Source: Leptolyngbya iicbica LK (lineage in GTDB: Bacteria; Cyanobacteriota; Cyanobacteriia; Phormidesmidales; Phormidesmidaceae). From it: a DNA stretch of 64,000 nucleotides. The DNA lies in assembly GCF_004212215.1 (NCBI RefSeq), contig NZ_QVFV01000001.1:1386155-1450154 (forward strand). Reading direction: 5' to 3'. Shown here one piece after another: positions 1,147-11,077 of this stretch (positions are counted from its first letter, which is position 1; each line of letters starts with the position of its first letter). Position numbers and translations under genes: made by a program. The notes below the pieces were generated by a model. The model searched no databases. It was not told the origin of the DNA and saw only the letters and a list, made by a program, of their open reading frames with translations.

Positions 1147-1548
1147 TTACTGAGGTGAGAGTGCGGTGGTCAGGCCCAAGTGCTGCACAAAGGGAATGAA
1201 GTCGCGATCGCTGAACAGCAATGTGTGATTTGCTTCGATGCAAAAGGTCGCAATGATGACATCAATTGTTTTTCTCACCGTGATGCCACGCTTTCTCAAG
1301 GTGCGGAAGTTTTCAGCACTTTTGATCGCCAACTCAGGATTGCTCAGTTGAAAGACCGTCAGGGATGTCATCAACTGCTTGGCGGTTTCGTAATCAGCAT
1401 CTTGCCGAAACCCCTGCAAGACTTCAGTGAGAATGATGTCACCGATCGCTAGGGGGTGAGTGTCTAAAAGCTGGTCGAGGAGTTCTACCTGGGGCGTGTT
1501 TTGACCATTGAAGTAGTCAATCCACACGCTGGAATCCACGAGAATCAT
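1147..1548 (-). CDS. vapC: PIN-domain RNase toxin (VapC family)
   Basis: This 133-residue PIN-domain protein matches the usual VapC length. The acidic metal-binding residues of the family are visible: Asp5 in ILVDSSVWID, Glu42 in TEVLQG, Asp96 in TIDVIIA and Asp114/Asp116 near FSDRDF. VapC toxins are Mg-dependent RNases that cut tRNA or rRNA when their antitoxin is lost. The start codon overlaps the stop of the upstream antitoxin gene by four bases (ATGA), the standard coupled layout of vapBC. The RNA target cannot be told from sequence. Confidence 0.88.
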   Translation of the reverse strand: MILVDSSVWIDYFNGQNTPQVELLDQLLDTHPLAIGDIILTEVLQGFRQDADYETAKQLMTSLTVFQLSNPELAIKSAENFRTLRKRGITVRKTIDVIIATFCIEANHTLLFSDRDFIPFVQHLGLTTALSPQ

Positions 1549-1739
1549 GCATTCGTTCTCATAGCATCTAGATCACCTTCCCAGGCCAACTTGCCTCGAA
1601 AGCCTTTGATGGCTTCCTGACGTTTGATTTGCAAGAGCATTTTTAGCGCGAGTTCAATAACCTGGTCAGTGGTATCGAGTCCAGTTACTTTGAGGGCATC
1701 AGCGATCAAGGCGTCATCGACTTCAACATTGGTTTTCAT
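1545..1739 (-). CDS. vapB: VapB-type antitoxin
   Basis: This 64-residue protein begins MKTNVEVDDALIADALKVTG, the ribbon-helix-helix-like N-terminus of VapB antitoxins that pair with PIN toxins (the 'type II toxin-antitoxin VapB' / DUF2191 group). The C-terminal part (FRGKLAWEGDLDAMR) is the expected toxin-wrapping tail. It is first in a two-gene operon and overlaps vapC by ATGA. Such antitoxins normally bind their own promoter and repress the pair; no operator was assigned here. Confidence 0.85.
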   Translation of the reverse strand: MKTNVEVDDALIADALKVTGLDTTDQVIELALKMLLQIKRQEAIKGFRGKLAWEGDLDAMRTNA

Positions 1740-1837: not shown

Positions 1838-2083
1838 TTAAAGACTTTTGATCGGGACTTGCAGATACTCGTCAGGTTTAGCTTGATTGTTCTGAATGTC
1901 AAAAAACTGCTGCTCGATCGCTTTTAAGACGGTCGCGCTGTAGTAGGCGGTGCCGCAGTCAGTGCAAATCTCGACTGGGGTATTTGGCACAATCAGGTAT
2001 TGGCCTTTATGACTGTAGAGATAAGTGGTCTGTCGTTCTTCGTAGTGAGTGCTGCCGCAGGTGTTACATCGTTTGGCTGACAT
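1838..2083 (-). CDS. YgiT-type zinc-finger protein
   Basis: This 81-residue protein has two CxxC pairs, CNTCG near residue 7 and CTDCG near residue 40. Around them is the YgiT/MqsA-N pattern (PVEICTDCGTAYYS). In cyanobacteria such proteins are often the antitoxin-like partner of a small DUF4258 toxin encoded immediately upstream. The upstream neighbour here is instead a PIN toxin on the same strand, 61 bases away, so the DUF4258 partner seems to be missing. Zinc binding is predicted from the four cysteines. Whether it regulates a neighbour is unknown. Confidence 0.75.
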   Translation of the reverse strand: MSAKRCNTCGSTHYEERQTTYLYSHKGQYLIVPNTPVEICTDCGTAYYSATVLKAIEQQFFDIQNNQAKPDEYLQVPIKSL

Positions 2084-2144: not shown

Positions 2145-2531
2145 TCACACCCACAGCCTTTCTACTGCGTAGAGATCAAAATGCGAATCTTTGCTGACAA
2201 TAACGAGGGCGTTATTGAGGGCTTGGGCAATTAACATGCGATCAAACGGATCGCGGTGATGCAAAGGCAGTTGACGCACTTGCACCGTATCTTCAAAGGT
2301 AATGGGTAACAGAAGAATATCGGAAGCGGCAAGCTCAATCCCGATCGCTTCATAGGGTTGATTGAGGGCAAGTTTGCCCAATTGAACCTTGATGGCAATC
2401 TCCCAGAGACTCGCAATGCTGAGATAGACGGTGTCTGCTTTATCAATCCGATCTTTCAGGGGTTGGGGCAGGTTGGAGTGGTTTTCACTCAACCAGATGA
2501 ATGCGTGCGTATCCAGAAGAAAAGCGGTCAC
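2145..2531 (-). CDS. PIN-domain RNase toxin (second VapC-like)
   Basis: This 128-residue PIN protein belongs to the subgroup starting LLDTHAFIW. Candidate catalytic acids are Asp7, Glu44 (SLWEIAIK), Asp94 and Asp97 (HRDPFDRML), with Asp115 in VSKD. This subgroup is usually paired with Phd- or DUF2281-type antitoxins, and the gene overlaps an upstream DUF2281-like gene by ATGA, which fits. It is clearly different in sequence from the VapC at 1147-1548, so the two pairs were acquired separately rather than by local duplication. Confidence 0.88.
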   Translation of the reverse strand: MTAFLLDTHAFIWLSENHSNLPQPLKDRIDKADTVYLSIASLWEIAIKVQLGKLALNQPYEAIGIELAASDILLLPITFEDTVQVRQLPLHHRDPFDRMLIAQALNNALVIVSKDSHFDLYAVERLWV

Positions 2532-2758
2532 GACATATAGTCCTGAAAGTCTTCTAAAGGCTCATCAAAATCATCAGGTAGAGGCAAGACAAAGGTGCCT
2601 TGTAAAATGCCGGAACGTCGCTTGAGAGGCTGTGACCCCTGACCAGAATTATCTTTGGCGTAATTGGCAATTAAGTATTCGGCATAGTGCAGTAGCTCAT
2701 GCTTCAAGTTATCCGGCATGTGCTCTAGCGCTTGGACAATTTGGGTATCAATGGTCAT
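2528..2758 (-). CDS. DUF2281-family antitoxin
   Basis: This 76-residue protein has an N-terminal helix (LEHMPDNLKHELLHYAEYL) typical of DUF2281, and an acidic C-terminus (LPDDFDEPLEDFQDYM). DUF2281 proteins are the usual antitoxin partners of LLDTH-type PIN toxins in cyanobacteria. The stop codon overlaps the start of the toxin gene by four bases. The acidic tail probably occupies the toxin active site; this is inferred from the family and was not tested. Confidence 0.8.
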   Translation of the reverse strand: MTIDTQIVQALEHMPDNLKHELLHYAEYLIANYAKDNSGQGSQPLKRRSGILQGTFVLPLPDDFDEPLEDFQDYMS

Positions 2759-2787: not shown

Positions 2788-2907
2788 CTAAGGGCGCGGA
2801 AAGGGCATGCGGGGTGGGGCGGTCTGACCCATGAGGTCGATTTCTTCGGGGGTGAGGCCGTAGGCTTGGTTGACGAGGCTAGAGATGCGGTGCTCTAGGG
2901 TGGAGTC
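2788..2907 (-). pseudogene. Relic: 3' end of a Type IIG restriction-modification gene
   Basis: On the minus strand this segment reads through about 37 codons ending NQAYGLTPEEIDLM...APPRMPFPRP and a stop (cta, 2788-2790). It closely matches the C-terminus of the intact enzyme at 4626-7964 (NQAYGLTPEEIDLM...APPRMPFNRP). The DNA match runs for about 105 bases and is high but imperfect; substitutions include changed residues (Gly-Gln against Trp-Lys) and an indel just before the stop. No upstream coding region survives. It is the tail of a diverged second copy or of an allele left by recombination, placed on the far side of the pentapeptide gene. Confidence 0.75.
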
Positions 2908-2979
2908 TCGCAACTCTGCGACGAGGGGGCAACGGTGCAACGTGGGGCAAGCGAGAAGGCTTAGGCGGTGGACTTGGGA

Positions 2980-4476
2980 CTATTCAATCCCGAGCTGTTG
3001 CTTCAGTTCTTTGGAGATATTCCTGGCTTTGGCGACTTCTTCAGCGGCGGGCCATTGGGTAGATTCGTTCCATTTTATTTTGCTAAGGTCGACACCGCTG
3101 AGGTCGGCACCGTCGAGACTGGCATCGCTGAGGTCAGCCCCGCTGAGGTTGGTGCCGCTGAGGTTGGTATCGCTGAGGTCGACACCGCTGAGGATGGTAC
3201 CGCTGAGGTCAGCGAAGTCGAGATTGGCTCCACTGAGATTAGTTCTGTTTAAGAGGCCATCGTAGCCAAGGTTGGCTTCCTTGAGGTCGGTACAGCTGAG
3301 CTGGGCCCCGCTGAGGTTAGCACCGCTGAGGTCGACACCGCTGAGGATGGTACCGCTGAGGTCGGCACCGCTAAGATCAGCCCCGCTGAGGTTGCCACTC
3401 TTGAGGATGGCCTGCCTGAGGTTAGCATTGCAGAAACTTGCATTGCAGTAGCGGTCACGGCCGAAGACGGCACCGCTGAGGTCGGCACCGCTGAGGTCGG
3501 CACCGCTGAAGTTGGTATCTTCGAGGTTAGCCTCCTTGAGGTTAGCACTACGGATGTGAGCTTCTTCGAGGTTGGCCCCGCTGAGGTCAGCCCCGCTGAG
3601 GTCAGCCCCGCTGAGGTCGGTACCGCTGAGGTCGGCACCATAGAGGCTAGCACCGTAGAGGTAGGCCTCTTTAAGGTTACCTCCCCTAAGGTAGGCCTCT
3701 TCGAGATTGATATCGTTGAGATAGGTTCCACTGAGGTTGGCCCTGCTGAGGTTGGCCCCGCTGAGGTTGGCCCTGCTGAGGTTGGCCCTGCTGAGGTCGG
3801 CACCACTAAGGTTGGTATTTTGGCGGTTGATAGTGTCGTGGATCAAGGCGAGATAATCACTCTCGATACCGTCAACGTGACAGTTTGGGTATTGATTTTT
3901 AGTGCCACCAATATCAAACAGATTGGCACCGCTAAGATCAGCACGATGGAGGTTGGCTTCTTCGAGGTTGGTACCACGGAGCCACGTATTTCTGAGGTTT
4001 GCCTTCCTGAGGTCGGCACCGCTAAGATCGGCACCGCTAAGATCGGCACCGCTGAGGTCGTCACCGTGGAGGTTGGCATTCCTGAGATCAGCACCACTGA
4101 GGTTAATGGTTTGTAAATCTGCTTTTGGAATATCTATCTCATAAAACGAAATATTGTCTTCATATAAATCTTCTATTGCTTTTCTGCGTGCATAGCTCGT
4201 TTCAATACCGTGAGCATTGTCAATGGTCTGCCATGCTTCATAATGTCGCTGCTTTTTTCGTTCGGGAATTTCCTTGAAGTAAAGGACTACCGCTGAAGCG
4301 ATTGCAATTGACTCTGCACTATCAAATATTACTTTTGCAGGATTGACTGATTTGTCGGGTTCAAGGACGATTGCGAGACCAGCCAAAATGACGACAACTT
4401 CTGTGATTAACCGCCATGTAGGAATTGACAGTAGTTGCTCCTCAATATTATTAAATGTTTTTTTTGCCTTCATCAC
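2980..4476 (-). CDS. Membrane-anchored pentapeptide-repeat protein
   Basis: This 498-residue protein has two hydrophobic segments near the N-terminus (about 21-39 and 49-67) and then a conserved-looking linker ([13 protein letters not shown]). From about residue 117 to 465 it is an almost continuous run of A(D/N)LSG-type pentapeptide repeats, which fold as a right-handed quadrilateral beta-helix. One interruption near 195-225 contains [10 protein letters not shown]. The tail ([11 protein letters not shown]) is helical. The HYEAWQ...A.G linker recurs in cyanobacterial pentapeptide membrane proteins; the biochemical role is unknown. It sits between a restriction enzyme gene and a relic of that gene's 3' end, so a defence-linked or hitch-hiking origin is possible. 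Very repetitive DNA gives long mirror-frame ORFs that are not genes. Confidence 0.85.
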
Positions 4477-4625
4477 GACTCAACCAAATTTGTTGTCACT
4501 TTGCCAAAGGCAAATCGATAACTGACAAGTCCTTACCGCGATTGAATTTGTTCTGACTGCTGAGTGGGTGCCCTTGCCTTTCAGCGTAGGATTAGCGCTT
4601 TGGAAACGTTCACGGTCTTGGAGAC

Positions 4626-7600
4626 TTATGGCCGATTGAAAGGCATGCGGGGTGGGGCGGTCTTCCACATGAGGTCGATTTCTTCGGGGGTAAGGCCGTA
4701 GGCTTGGTTGACCAGATCAGAGATGCGGTGCTCTAGGGTGAGGCCCGCGTTGCGGCGCTGCTGAATGGGGTGGGCGTAGTCGCTGTAGGCTGCTTTGAGT
4801 TCTTTGAGGGGTTTGGGGCCGAGGCTACCGGCGGCTTTGGGGCGGCGTTTTTTGACTTCTTTGAGGAAGTCGTCAAGGGGCAGGCTGGCGAAGTCGCTGA
4901 GTTTGTTGCCGGGTTTTTCGATGCCGTGTTCGAGCTGGAGCCAGTCGAGGATATCGCGGGTAGCTTCCTGATTAGCTTTGGTGAATTCGATCAGTTGTTG
5001 GACGGCAGGTTCGACTTCGGCGCGGATTTCGTCTGTCGGTGGAGCAATGGGAAAGTTTTCGATTAATTCTCCTTTGGGGGTTAGTGCTTCATCTTTCATG
5101 TGAGGAAGATAACGCCAGTTGTGCCACCAACCAATCGGTGAATTCAAAACAGCTAGAGGAAACAGCTCCTCCGTGGCTAAAATGAAGCATTTGTTATTTG
5201 TGTAATACCCTTCAGTGTCGTAGCAATATGACGGGTGAAACTGGATTTCTTGATAAATTATTTTTGGTTTCTCGAATCTTTTATATTGTGCAGGCATAGA
5301 TTGAAGCTGCCACCATTCTTGTCTGCCTGCCCTGGAATCAAGTCTTTCTCGGTGTTGCTCAAGATGTTCTTTGACTCCAGGATATTGCTCTATTCTAATA
5401 TCGGGCGTAGTCATTATCATCCAAAGCTTTTGCCACTCTGAATTCCATCTGTTAATGTCCTGTCCTCTTAGATACGGTTTGATTATTTGCACTGATTGGG
5501 AGTCTTTAGAAACAATTTCATCTCTAGTCTCTTGGTCTATTAAAAATGCTTTGTTATAGCCTGTTTTTAAGCCGTATAGAGGAGGAGTTCCAAGGAAATC
5601 ATTCAGGCAAACGCCTACTACCTTGAGCTTATCCATGAGTTGTTCGACAGCAGGAGATTCTAAGCTCCACTCTTCCTTGCCATAGCGCGCCCAAGGAACC
5701 TCGTAACCTTCTTGGTTGATGTATTGAGGGAGGTTGATATTCTCTAGATGTTCCCTTGGCACTGGACACACCTGAACAGGGGCCGCCGCTTCCGGCTTCT
5801 CTATCTCTTTTGCTTCCACTGCCTCCGGCTTTCTCACTGAGACAATGCACGGAAACACATCGGCATCCTCAAAAATTGGGGCATGGCCGAAGTCGATGAT
5901 TTGCTCAAACACACTGTTCTCCGAAAAAAACTGCCGTAGCGGTTCCCCATAGCCCGCCCGCAGCCACTTGTTCGTCACGATGTACGACAAAATCCCATTG
6001 GGCCGCAGGATATTCAGCCCCTTTTCGTAGAAATAGACATAGATATCCGCCACACCGTCATAGGCCGCATAGTGCTCTTGCAGATAGGGCTTGAAGGGCG
6101 TCAGCAACTCCTGGCGCACATAGGGCGGGTTGCCAATCACCACATCAAACCCGCCACTGGCAAACACCACCGGAAACGCCGCTTCCCAGTCAAAGGCATA
6201 GGCCGGGTCAAACGCCGGGTCCGCAATGATGGAGTTGCCCACCTTGATGTTGTTGTCTAGATAGGTCAGCGTCTTGCCCCGCTCCGCCGTCTTCAGCCAG
6301 AGGGAGAGCTTAGTAATCTCCACCGACTCCGGCGATAGGTCTACCCCGTAAAGGTTCTGGTTGAGGATGGTCTTCGTCAGGTCAAACAGACTGCGCTGAC
6401 CGACAAACTCCCCCGACTCATCCTCCGTTTTGAGGGCGGCCAGCCGTTCATTCACTTCCTCATACTTGCGATTCAAAAAGTCAAAAGCCGCAATGAGAAA
6501 CGCGCCCGAACCGCAGGCCGGATCGATCACGCGGGTTTGGGTCAGCACCTCATCCCGGTAGCGCTCCCAAAACTGAATCTCGGCCCGCTGCCGCTGCCGC
6601 ACCGCATTGGCGCGAATCTGGTCAATGCCCATGGCTTCCCAGAGGGCATCTTTCTTGCGCTCCAGATATTCGCCCAGCGCCACCCCGACGATGTACTGCG
6701 TGATGAACGCCGGAGTGTAATAGACGCCCTGGGTCTTGCGGCGGCCCTGCTTCTGGTCGTATGCCTGGTGGGTCGCCTGGGCGCGCAGTTCCTCCAAATC
6801 GGAGACCGACTGCTCAAAGATGTGCCCCAGAATGTTGACCGAGACCTCTGACTCAAAATCGTAGGTGGTGAGCTGGTTGAGCTGGCTACAGAGAATGTCG
6901 GAGACCATCAATTGCTCATCGAGCAGCGGGTCGTGGGCAAAGAGACCGCCATTGTAGCCGGGAATCGAAAGGGCGCTGTTGCCCTTGTCCACCGCTTGAA
7001 AGACCGCCTTAAAGTTCTCCCAAATCGTGCGCGGACTGTAGGGATCTTGGTGGTCGTGGGCCTGTTGTAGCGTTTTCTCCGGCAGCAGCCCCCGGTCTTC
7101 GCAAAAGGCAATGAACAGGATGCGATCGAGCACCTTTTGGGCAGCGGCGATGAGGGTGATGTTGCGCTCGGACAGGTCGGCTGGCCCCATGTGGAGGAAA
7201 TGCTTGGCGATCGCCAGCCGCACCTTTTTGTAGTCCTGGTAGAGCGCTTTGGTGATGTCTTCATCGGCGTTGGCCGACTCGATGAGCAACTGGTCAATGC
7301 GGGATTTGGCTTTGGGGTCCGCCGAGGCGGGCAAAAAGTTGTTGCGACACAGCAGGAAATAGAACTGCTTGAAGGTGTCCAGGTCTTCCAGGTCTTCGAG
7401 CCGAAACCGCTCGTAATAAGCCGGGGTTTTACTGGTCTGGTAAAGCCGGATTTCGCGATAGTTCGACACGATCACCCAGCGGCAATCGGGGGTGTAATTG
7501 GCATAGCGCCAGCCCTGATCCACCGCTGATTCATGGCGACCCTTGACGGCGCGATCGAGGTCATTGGTGACGCCCTTGAGTTCAATCGGGGCCACCACCC

Positions 7601-7964
7601 GCCCCTGAAGCTTCACCTTGCCCGAATCTTCCGTCTTGGCATGGAATAGCCCGATCGCTCCGTCCGCTGAACCGCCGCCATCGGCAATGGTTTGTTCGGC
7701 GTGCAGCTCCCAGCGATCGCCCCCAATAATCGAGCGGTACCCTAACACCGTTTGAAAGATGTCGTTGAGAAACGGCCCGTGGAGCGAGACTTCCTTGACC
7801 TTGGCGAGCCTGCCCGACTTCAGCGAGGTGATCCACTCCTGTACCTTCTGATGGCGATCGGCCAGGTCTGGCGGAAACGTGAAGCCCTTCAGGGCATTCT
7901 CGACGGTCTTCTGGTTAAAGAGGGCACCAGCAGCTTTTCCGGTCATGGCGGAGCTTGGAGTCAT
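4626..7964 (-). CDS. Single-chain restriction-modification enzyme (Type IIG, Eco57I-like)
   Basis: This 1112-residue protein combines endonuclease, methyltransferase and specificity parts. The N-terminus shows a PD-(D/E)xK-like set: Asp101 in SADGAIG and Glu128-x-Lys130 in APIELKG. The N6-adenine methylase core has motif I, DPACGSGAFL, near residue 480 and motif IV, NPPYV, near 610. A TaqI-like target-recognition region follows (KPYLRGQDINRW, then PKIIYQEI) and the chain ends in a helical domain. These enzymes cut unmodified DNA and methylate one or both strands, so one gene can form a complete system. No separate methylase or S subunit is nearby. The recognition site cannot be read from sequence. 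All key motifs look intact. Confidence 0.88.
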   Translation of the reverse strand: MTPSSAMTGKAAGALFNQKTVENALKGFTFPPDLADRHQKVQEWITSLKSGRLAKVKEVSLHGPFLNDIFQTVLGYRSIIGGDRWELHAEQTIADGGGSADGAIGLFHAKTEDSGKVKLQGRVVAPIELKGVTNDLDRAVKGRHESAVDQGWRYANYTPDCRWVIVSNYREIRLYQTSKTPAYYERFRLEDLEDLDTFKQFYFLLCRNNFLPASADPKAKSRIDQLLIESANADEDITKALYQDYKKVRLAIAKHFLHMGPADLSERNITLIAAAQKVLDRILFIAFCEDRGLLPEKTLQQAHDHQDPYSPRTIWENFKAVFQAVDKGNSALSIPGYNGGLFAHDPLLDEQLMVSDILCSQLNQLTTYDFESEVSVNILGHIFEQSVSDLEELRAQATHQAYDQKQGRRKTQGVYYTPAFITQYIVGVALGEYLERKKDALWEAMGIDQIRANAVRQRQRAEIQFWERYRDEVLTQTRVIDPACGSGAFLIAAFDFLNRKYEEVNERLAALKTEDESGEFVGQRSLFDLTKTILNQNLYGVDLSPESVEITKLSLWLKTAERGKTLTYLDNNIKVGNSIIADPAFDPAYAFDWEAAFPVVFASGGFDVVIGNPPYVRQELLTPFKPYLQEHYAAYDGVADIYVYFYEKGLNILRPNGILSYIVTNKWLRAGYGEPLRQFFSENSVFEQIIDFGHAPIFEDADVFPCIVSVRKPEAVEAKEIEKPEAAAPVQVCPVPREHLENINLPQYINQEGYEVPWARYGKEEWSLESPAVEQLMDKLKVVGVCLNDFLGTPPLYGLKTGYNKAFLIDQETRDEIVSKDSQSVQIIKPYLRGQDINRWNSEWQKLWMIMTTPDIRIEQYPGVKEHLEQHRERLDSRAGRQEWWQLQSMPAQYKRFEKPKIIYQEIQFHPSYCYDTEGYYTNNKCFILATEELFPLAVLNSPIGWWHNWRYLPHMKDEALTPKGELIENFPIAPPTDEIRAEVEPAVQQLIEFTKANQEATRDILDWLQLEHGIEKPGNKLSDFASLPLDDFLKEVKKRRPKAAGSLGPKPLKELKAAYSDYAHPIQQRRNAGLTLEHRISDLVNQAYGLTPEEIDLMWKTAPPRMPFNRP

Positions 7965-10540: not shown

Positions 10541-11038
10541 ATGAAAGCTCTTGCTGTAACCCTGACCGCTCTGACCGCTGCAACGATCGCCATTGCTCCC
10601 GCGAGCTACGCTATCCCTGACTTCAGTGAATTGCGCGAAGAGAACCTGGACAAAGGCGCGATCGACTTTGATCAACTGCGTGAAGAGAACTTAGATAAAG
10701 GGGTCATCTACGAAGTAGCCGCTATTGACTTCGACGCTCTCCGCGAAGAGAACTTAGATAAAGGCGCGATCGACTTCGATGAACTTCGTGAAGAGAACTT
10801 GGATAAAGGGGCCATCTACGAAGTGGCCGCCATTGATTTTGACGCTCTCCGCGAAGAGAACCTGGACAAAGGCGCGATCGACTTCGATGAACTTCGTGAG
10901 GAGAACTTAGATAAAGGGGCCATCTACGAAGTGGCCGCCATTGATTTTGACGCTCTCCGCGAAGAGAACTTGGACAAAGGCGCGATCGACTTTGACCAAC
11001 TCCGCCAGGACAACCTTGAGAAAGATGCTGTGGCGTAA
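10541..11038 (+). CDS. Exported tandem-repeat protein (LREENLDKG repeats)
   Basis: This 165-residue protein has a clear Sec signal peptide (about 1-24, ending PASYA). The rest is eight units of the form IDFDxLREENLDKGA. Alternate units carry the extension IYEVAA, so lengths alternate 15 and 21 residues and the true period is 36 residues. Every unit is acidic and has identical spacing of charged residues, predicting a regular helical or solenoid rod. Unit 1 (IPDFSELREENLDKGA) and the last (QLRQDNLEKDAVA) are diverged caps. I do not recognise the family. The mature protein would lie in the periplasm, lumen or outside the cell. It has a strong ribosome site (AAAGGAG). The DNA of successive 108-bp periods is nearly identical, so the array is young or kept uniform. 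Confidence 0.8.
   Translation: MKALAVTLTALTAATIAIAPASYAIPDFSELREENLDKGAIDFDQLREENLDKGVIYEVAAIDFDALREENLDKGAIDFDELREENLDKGAIYEVAAIDFDALREENLDKGAIDFDELREENLDKGAIYEVAAIDFDALREENLDKGAIDFDQLRQDNLEKDAVA
10613..11023 (+). repeat. 108-bp coding tandem repeat (about 3.5 periods)
   Basis: Periods begin at about 10613, 10724, 10832 and 10940. Within each, two shorter subunits (45 and 63 bp) encode the same LREENLDKG core. Synonymous differences between periods are few, for example gacctggac/gacttagat variants. This is characteristic of expansion by replication slippage or unequal recombination. Confidence 0.9.
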
Positions 11039-11077
11039 TGGCTCGCCCGTTTGCTGTGGCGTAATGGCTCGCCCGTT
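11026..11077 (+). repeat. Perfect 26-bp tandem duplication across a stop codon
   Basis: Two exact 26-base copies (11026-11051 and 11052-11077) lie at the 3' end of the repeat-protein gene. Each contains TAATGG. In the first copy TAA is the real stop of that gene. In the second the overlapping ATG (11064) begins the next reading frame. Before duplication the two genes would have overlapped as TAATG. Confidence 0.9.

Follow-up and report, generated by a model that had tools for sequence, protein, structure and literature searches.

Two kinds of described systems come closest to the locus treated here. Insertion accompanied by a long duplication of the target sequence has been described for restriction-modification (R-M) genes (PMC3031569, citing Nobusato et al. 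2000), and toxin-antitoxin (TA) modules have been described as stabilizing chromosomal islands, for example, HipAB (PMC8978831) and SGI1 (PMC5006074). In Leptolyngbya iicbica LK, a 64,000-nt stretch of contig NZ_QVFV01000001.1 (positions 1,386,155 to 1,450,154; here, the window) carries a gene for a type IIG restriction enzyme-methyltransferase whose 3' end is present a second time, on the far side of a pentapeptide-repeat gene and just ahead of a putative VapBC TA pair. We consider it probable, at roughly 0.6, that this second copy is what remains of an earlier, related type IIG gene, kept together with the TA block at a place where cargo genes change.

The locus shares with the R-M insertions described in that source direct repeats of ~100 nt that bracket genes at a restriction locus, as well as cargo that varies among relatives. 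It differs from the cases given there in three ways: the repeated sequence comes from the 3' end of the R-M gene, something other than an R-M gene is bracketed, and one of the two copies seems to be older and tied to the VapBC block. With the island-stabilizing modules described in the two other sources it shares the idea of an addiction module that resists the loss of adjoining DNA, whereas here the neighbor would have been lost and only its edge would have stayed. Like other Eco57I-like type IIG enzymes, the window enzyme is a single large protein with an Eco57I methylase and a TaqI-like specificity domain; the protein itself is ordinary, and the frequency of its solitary 3' ends is the unusual part. 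Likewise, the TA pair is built as other type II VapBC modules with DUF2281 as VapB are, with a DUF2281/NF050009 antitoxin gene followed by an overlapping PIN gene, whereas its leader appears to start within a restriction-gene remnant. Literature searches on DUF2281/PIN TA systems, long target duplication, cyanobacterial R-M and TA remnants, and TA modules acting against deletion listed nothing about R-M 3' stubs kept ahead of TA genes.

A repeat search of the window matched positions 2801-2902 with 4639-4740 over 102 nt at 91% identity; with one gap allowed, the alignment extends to 2911. The local-alignment score is 85, compared with at most 16 in 300 random pairs of equal dinucleotide make-up, and BLASTn of the two copies gives an E value of 7e-37. 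Both copies lie on the minus strand, where the frame reads LEHRIS.LVNQAYGLTPEEIDLM..TAPPRMPF.RP and a stop codon ends each. The copy at 4639-4740 is the 3' end of the type IIG gene (4626-7964), of which the repeat represents the last ~37 codons. The stop codon of the second copy is at 2788-2790, and this copy, including the stop, occupies 2788-2902 as an orphan tail that is best read as a relic. The two tails differ by 9%, and their final 15 nt are far more diverged. No third copy was found at the DNA level in the genome of the strain, nor was a further enzyme gene of this type IIG family. The first-pass annotation had described a diverged repeat of ~105 bases with an indel at the enzyme's 3' end, at 2800-2905 and 4637-4741; this repeat is real and lies where it was reported, although its exact ends are a few bases off. 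The pentapeptide gene described there as intact between the two copies is indeed a single open frame (2980-4476, minus strand, 498 amino acids [aa]). A diversity-generating retroelement was considered as the source of the differences and rejected, because they are not confined to template adenines and include G/T, C/G, and C/T positions.

Read along the minus strand, the type IIG gene (7964-4626) is followed by 149 nt, the pentapeptide gene (4476-2980), a 77-nt junction from the pentapeptide stop to the orphan tail (2979-2903), the orphan tail (2902-2788), 29 nt, a VapB gene (2758-2528), a PIN toxin gene (2531-2145), and an MqsA-like gene; beyond the latter are another VapB/VapC-like pair and a gene of the nucleotidyltransferase fold. 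Among the compared loci, the junction matches only the window's own DNA.

If the second copy were a recent copy of its neighbor's end, the two tails would be expected to be nearest kin. In a tree of the 71-nt core (71 columns), the second copy instead forms a clade with a lone tail from another genus of the same family (genome G011), with support of 95/94. Forcing the second copy together with the neighboring enzyme costs 10.3 log units and is rejected marginally on these 71 columns (p-AU 0.046). The second copy and the G011 tail both have GGTCAG at a site where the enzymes have TGG followed by a Lys or Arg codon, and the lone tail of the same-genus genome G004 has TGGCAG. In in-frame tails, Trp followed by Lys or Arg is found in 29/29 enzymes (for G322, G053, and G275, the codons were taken from the in-frame tails, the automatic reading having had the wrong frame), whereas Gln at the second codon occurs in the second copy, G011, and G004 and in 0/29 enzyme frames.

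Furthermore, the second copy is collinear with a tail-VapB-VapC-MqsA-like block in G004 (contig C226), which corresponds to positions 1831-2876 of the window (minus strand) with 88% DNA identity and ends with the MqsA-like gene. The identities are 71/86 for the tail, 29/32 for the spacer, 206/231 for VapB, and 348/383 for VapC. The G004 contig, which is short (3.2 kb), has no other match with the window except to the enzyme's own tail. No enzyme precedes the G004 tail; both flanks of the block are dissimilar to the window, and the neighbors of the lone tail differ on both sides from those in the window. Because the second copy runs unbroken into the block shared with G004, where the enzyme is missing, the stub appears to belong to the TA block and not to the adjoining enzyme. 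To judge from these sequences, the second copy is unlikely to have been copied recently from the end of the neighboring enzyme gene. The first-pass annotation compared the layout to insertion or allele replacement by recombination at the enzyme's 3' end; one such event, in which the neighbor's end was copied, is not supported, given the grouping with the G011 tail, the marginal rejection of a clade with the neighbor, and the collinearity with the G004 block.

Enzyme bodies have been lost in place in relatives, with the 3' ends remaining. In the genus g12, genomes G066, G077, and G099 match one another on both flanks and represent a single chromosomal site, the downstream side of which is also present in G023. 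G066 has an intact enzyme followed by VapBC; in G099, a 5' piece of the enzyme is fused to the last ~50 codons, which precede the same VapBC as in G066; in G023, an internal deletion has joined 5' and 3' pieces (the two overlap by ~10 nt when aligned), and a different, antitoxin-like gene ("MNAHKI") follows the gutted enzyme; and G077 has only the 5' piece. In G252, of another family, the tail precedes a gene that from its protein sequence we take to be leuC; the same gene (92 to 94% protein identity) follows the intact enzymes in G153, G370, and G376, and G252 retains 133 nt of the enzyme's 5' flank at 85% identity. In the lone tail G223_orph, the enzyme's 5' flank (84%) lies immediately before the tail, although this flank matched few of the compared loci. 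The tails of G099, G023, G252, and G223_orph reflect in-place losses of the enzyme body. As a separate observation, a ~95-nt palindromic insert is present in the last codons of the gutted G023 enzyme (locus L091, ~7163-7260), between two copies of a GCCGYCC motif.

Solitary tails were surveyed with a 37-residue tail query in 388 genomes of the class. It gave 48 matches in 44 genomes. Of these matches, 29 form the end of an enzyme frame and 5 are partial; the other 14 lack an enzyme body immediately upstream, although 2 of them (in the window and in G068) have an intact enzyme farther upstream. The partial cases, which were counted neither among the 29 enzymes nor among the 14 stubs, are G027, G122, and G362 (contig ends), G023 (internal deletion), and G159 (3' part only); G099 was tallied as a stub, although its 5' piece was found afterwards. 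An internal 37-residue query of higher conservation gave 30 matches in 30 genomes and no short lone piece, the shortest matching frame being one of 353 aa (G177). A 69-residue 5' query revealed lone or truncated 5' pieces in G023, G077, and G177, in addition to weak matches (35 to 42%) to another protein family, mostly in frames of ~550 residues. The excess of lone 3' pieces over lone 5' pieces (14 versus 2, p 0.004) is only suggestive, and we do not rely on it, since G099 has a short 5' piece that escaped the 5' query and came to light only by direct comparison with its nearest relatives. A profile search of all compared loci for further weak tails produced no new convincing one (a 16-bit match in locus L169 was ignored). 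The G011 lone tail is preceded by another kind of Eco57I-type enzyme together with a small gene pair (L089, 835-4449) and is thus also downstream of a restriction-like gene.

The cargo 3' of the enzyme changes between relatives, and tails or spacers can repeat around it. Directly 3' of the enzyme, G066, G068, and G099 have VapBC, G023 has the "MNAHKI" gene, and G271 has two stacked TA modules. The genes that follow tails include DUF2281/PIN pairs of two subtypes, a MazE-like/PIN pair (G219), and Phd/YoeB (G275); a PIN gene with a small partner gene follows both the G011 stub and the intact G107 enzyme (49 to 52% identical, with the G011 PIN match slightly below the cutoff). The closest parallel to the window is G068, where the enzyme tail is followed by VapBC, a second tail with its spacer (81 nt, 88.9%), and a Uma2 gene. 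In G271, the spacer that follows the tail recurs before the second TA module. That cargo is shuffled beside the defense gene, as the first-pass annotation suggested, is borne out by these differing occupants of one position and by the repeated tail on the far side of the G068 cargo; the comparison of relatives proposed there was made, and it revealed no single layout common to all of them. Among the genomes compared, none of which belongs to the same species, a true empty site for the pentapeptide gene was not seen. A conserved spacer of ~66 nt with the palindrome GTGGGCAGTGCCCAC was also noticed between the tail and differing antitoxin genes in two families (loci L095, L096, L147, L152, and L091).

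Assuming that the second copy is a relic, an older related type IIG gene would once have stood ahead of the VapB-VapC-MqsA-like genes, and its last ~37 codons (2788-2902) would be what remains. In relatives, the bodies of such enzymes are lost repeatedly, by internal deletion or by removal of nearly the whole frame, with the 3' stub staying joined to the genes that follow it. The stub may have been retained since deletions into the antitoxin leader would be harmful; only 29 nt separate the stub stop from the antitoxin start, and therefore the promoter/operator must extend into the stub, unless the pair is read from upstream. In this strain, a separate event would have brought both the current enzyme and the pentapeptide gene upstream of the older stub, giving the order enzyme tail, pentapeptide gene, old tail, and TA genes. 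The region directly 3' of this enzyme family is a site where accessory genes turn over and stack.

Several observations weigh against this account. Had the enzyme arrived separately, its landing 1.8 kb upstream in the same orientation would call for an explanation. No sigma-70 promoter was found by a consensus scan of the minus strand near the stub, ahead of VapB. The tree is based on 71 columns, with a p value barely below 0.05, and by itself it does not group the G004 tail with the second copy, although neither a clade of the second copy with G004 and G011 (p 0.30) nor one with G004 (p 0.16) is rejected. The distal tail of G068 is nearest to its own enzyme (88.9%, versus 80 to 82% to others), which fits local duplication, a process that may act in the window too. 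TA genes follow 6/14 stubs and 6/26 enzymes (Fisher p 0.28), counting 26 of the 29 enzymes, as 3 have too little downstream sequence, and including G079, in which the TA gene is the second after the stub, the G011 stub with its slightly subthreshold PIN match, and the G324 enzyme, for which unannotated VapB-like and nucleotidyltransferase-like frames were recognized by eye only; since the difference is not significant, TA neighbors characterize the surroundings of the enzyme rather than stubs as such. Finally, no recognized TA genes are downstream of the stubs G216, G277, G358, G223_orph, and G063_orph.

Under the main competing explanation, the 3' end of an enzyme-tail-VapBC locus received the pentapeptide gene by insertion and ~100 nt of target were duplicated, so that both tails would derive from one enzyme. 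The layout is exactly that of a ~100-nt direct repeat around a single gene, G068 has the same layout around VapBC with a repeat nearest its own enzyme, and long target duplications of variable length are among the R-M insertions reported in PMC3031569. In the cases reported there, however, R-M genes are what inserts, while here the R-M gene would be the target. Such a duplication would also make the two core tails mutual nearest relatives, which the p-AU of 0.046, marginal as it is, and the clade with G011 speak against, and it leaves the 9% difference, much larger in the last 15 nt, to be accounted for. We therefore regard this insertion as somewhat unlikely. It is also conceivable that two enzyme copies once stood in tandem, that the second was reduced to its 3' end, and that the pentapeptide gene entered during or after this loss. 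Internal deletions that leave the ends of the gene are documented in G099 and G023, but the 1.7 kb upstream of the orphan tail holds no enzyme 5' piece, and two full tandem copies of this family were seen at none of the loci examined; this history appears distinctly improbable.

Two further proposals give the tail a role of its own. In one, the last ~100 nt of the enzyme gene would be both leader and border of TA cassettes and carry their promoter/operator, the stub would move between genera together with the module, and the shared tail or spacer would let modules stack, as in G068, G271, and the window. Travel of the stub between genera after the enzyme had gone is suggested because the second copy, G004, and G011 share a change that is absent from the intact enzymes examined; we hold this proposal to be unlikely. 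In the other, the tail would be a small DNA element (an attachment site, a repeat, or a regulatory element) copied independently of the enzyme. The rarity of lone 5' or internal pieces relative to the 14 lone tails and the tail or spacer copies ahead of stacked modules in G068 and G271 are what such an element would leave, but the 5' control was partly blind, in-place deletion explains four of the lone or partial tails, and a DNA-level constraint on the tail was rejected, its same-codon use among the enzymes being ordinary (0.489, where the mean is 0.476 and the tail ranks 40th among 132 windows). An element of this kind is very improbable. The relic of an older type IIG gene is thus the reading that we prefer.

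The type IIG enzyme (4626-7964, minus strand) has 1,112 aa, with matches to the N6-adenine methylase domain Eco57I (PF07669, 8.4e-49), to the fused specificity domain TaqI_C (PF12950, 2.5e-9; 37.8 bits, cutoff 26.5), and, nearly over its full length (residues 55-1099), to the PADLOC model REase_MTase_IIG (PDLC03609, 9.5e-145). The protein may start at a second Met (~7946), because the homolog at locus L059 begins there. A D..ELK motif (ADGAIG...APIELKG), spotted by eye in the N-terminal part, is a candidate nuclease motif. The same tail closes larger enzymes in G219 and G289 (L139 and L140; frames of 1,331 and 1,366 aa), the N-terminal part of which is just 26 to 28% identical to the window enzyme, and the mobilizable rhizobial plasmid pBel61 of Bradyrhizobium elkanii (L176) encodes a related Eco57I-type enzyme, with 85% identity in the tail. 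Back to back with the window enzyme lies a GIY-YIG gene that is conserved in G003 (L169, 7744-9841) to 2 nt from the enzyme start; there it faces another gene (347 aa), not the enzyme. A relative of the pentapeptide gene (2980-4476) on contig C6 of the same genome (L173, 5453-7321; 70% over the N-terminal part) is interrupted by a 269-aa frame that looks transposase-like by eye.

The VapB-type antitoxin gene (DUF2281; 2528-2758, minus strand), which starts 29 nt past the orphan-tail stop, matches PF10047 (1.3e-20) and the NCBIfam model TA_VapB (NF050009, 1.3e-22; 80 bits, cutoff 60). Directly downstream, the frame of the VapC-like PIN-domain toxin (2145-2531, minus strand; PF01850, 1.8e-16) shares 4 nt with it, and together they form a putative VapBC pair. 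Genes with DUF2281 are rare, with 0 to 9 matches in each of 59 genomes; of the three matches in the genome of the strain, only the one adjacent to the stub exceeds the cutoff. A TAGAAT hexamer, seen by eye only, overlaps the stub stop (2785-2790). The MqsA/YokU-like zinc-ribbon gene (1838-2083, minus strand) matches YokU (8.4e-6) and MqsA (2.8e-5), both under the curated cutoffs, and the further VapB/VapC-like pair (1147-1739, minus strand; Pfam VapB_antitoxin, 4.1e-11; PIN, 3.1e-9) is outside the G004 block. When positions 1-2980 were searched in five same-genus genomes, 96-202 proved to be a dispersed repeat found in dozens of places, mostly at 73 to 91% identity. Elsewhere in the window, the gene at 10541-11038 consists of 108-nt direct repeats (LREENLDKGAIDFD units), and 26 nt at its 3' end are perfectly duplicated in tandem (11026-11077).

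If the second copy is indeed a relic, stubs of this kind would let genome comparisons date and count the losses of large restriction genes, and an antitoxin leader within the stub would make it possible to test whether an addiction module limits how far adjoining deletions reach. The comparison would also supply naturally occurring deletions at a single orthologous site, the ends of which can be read to the base.

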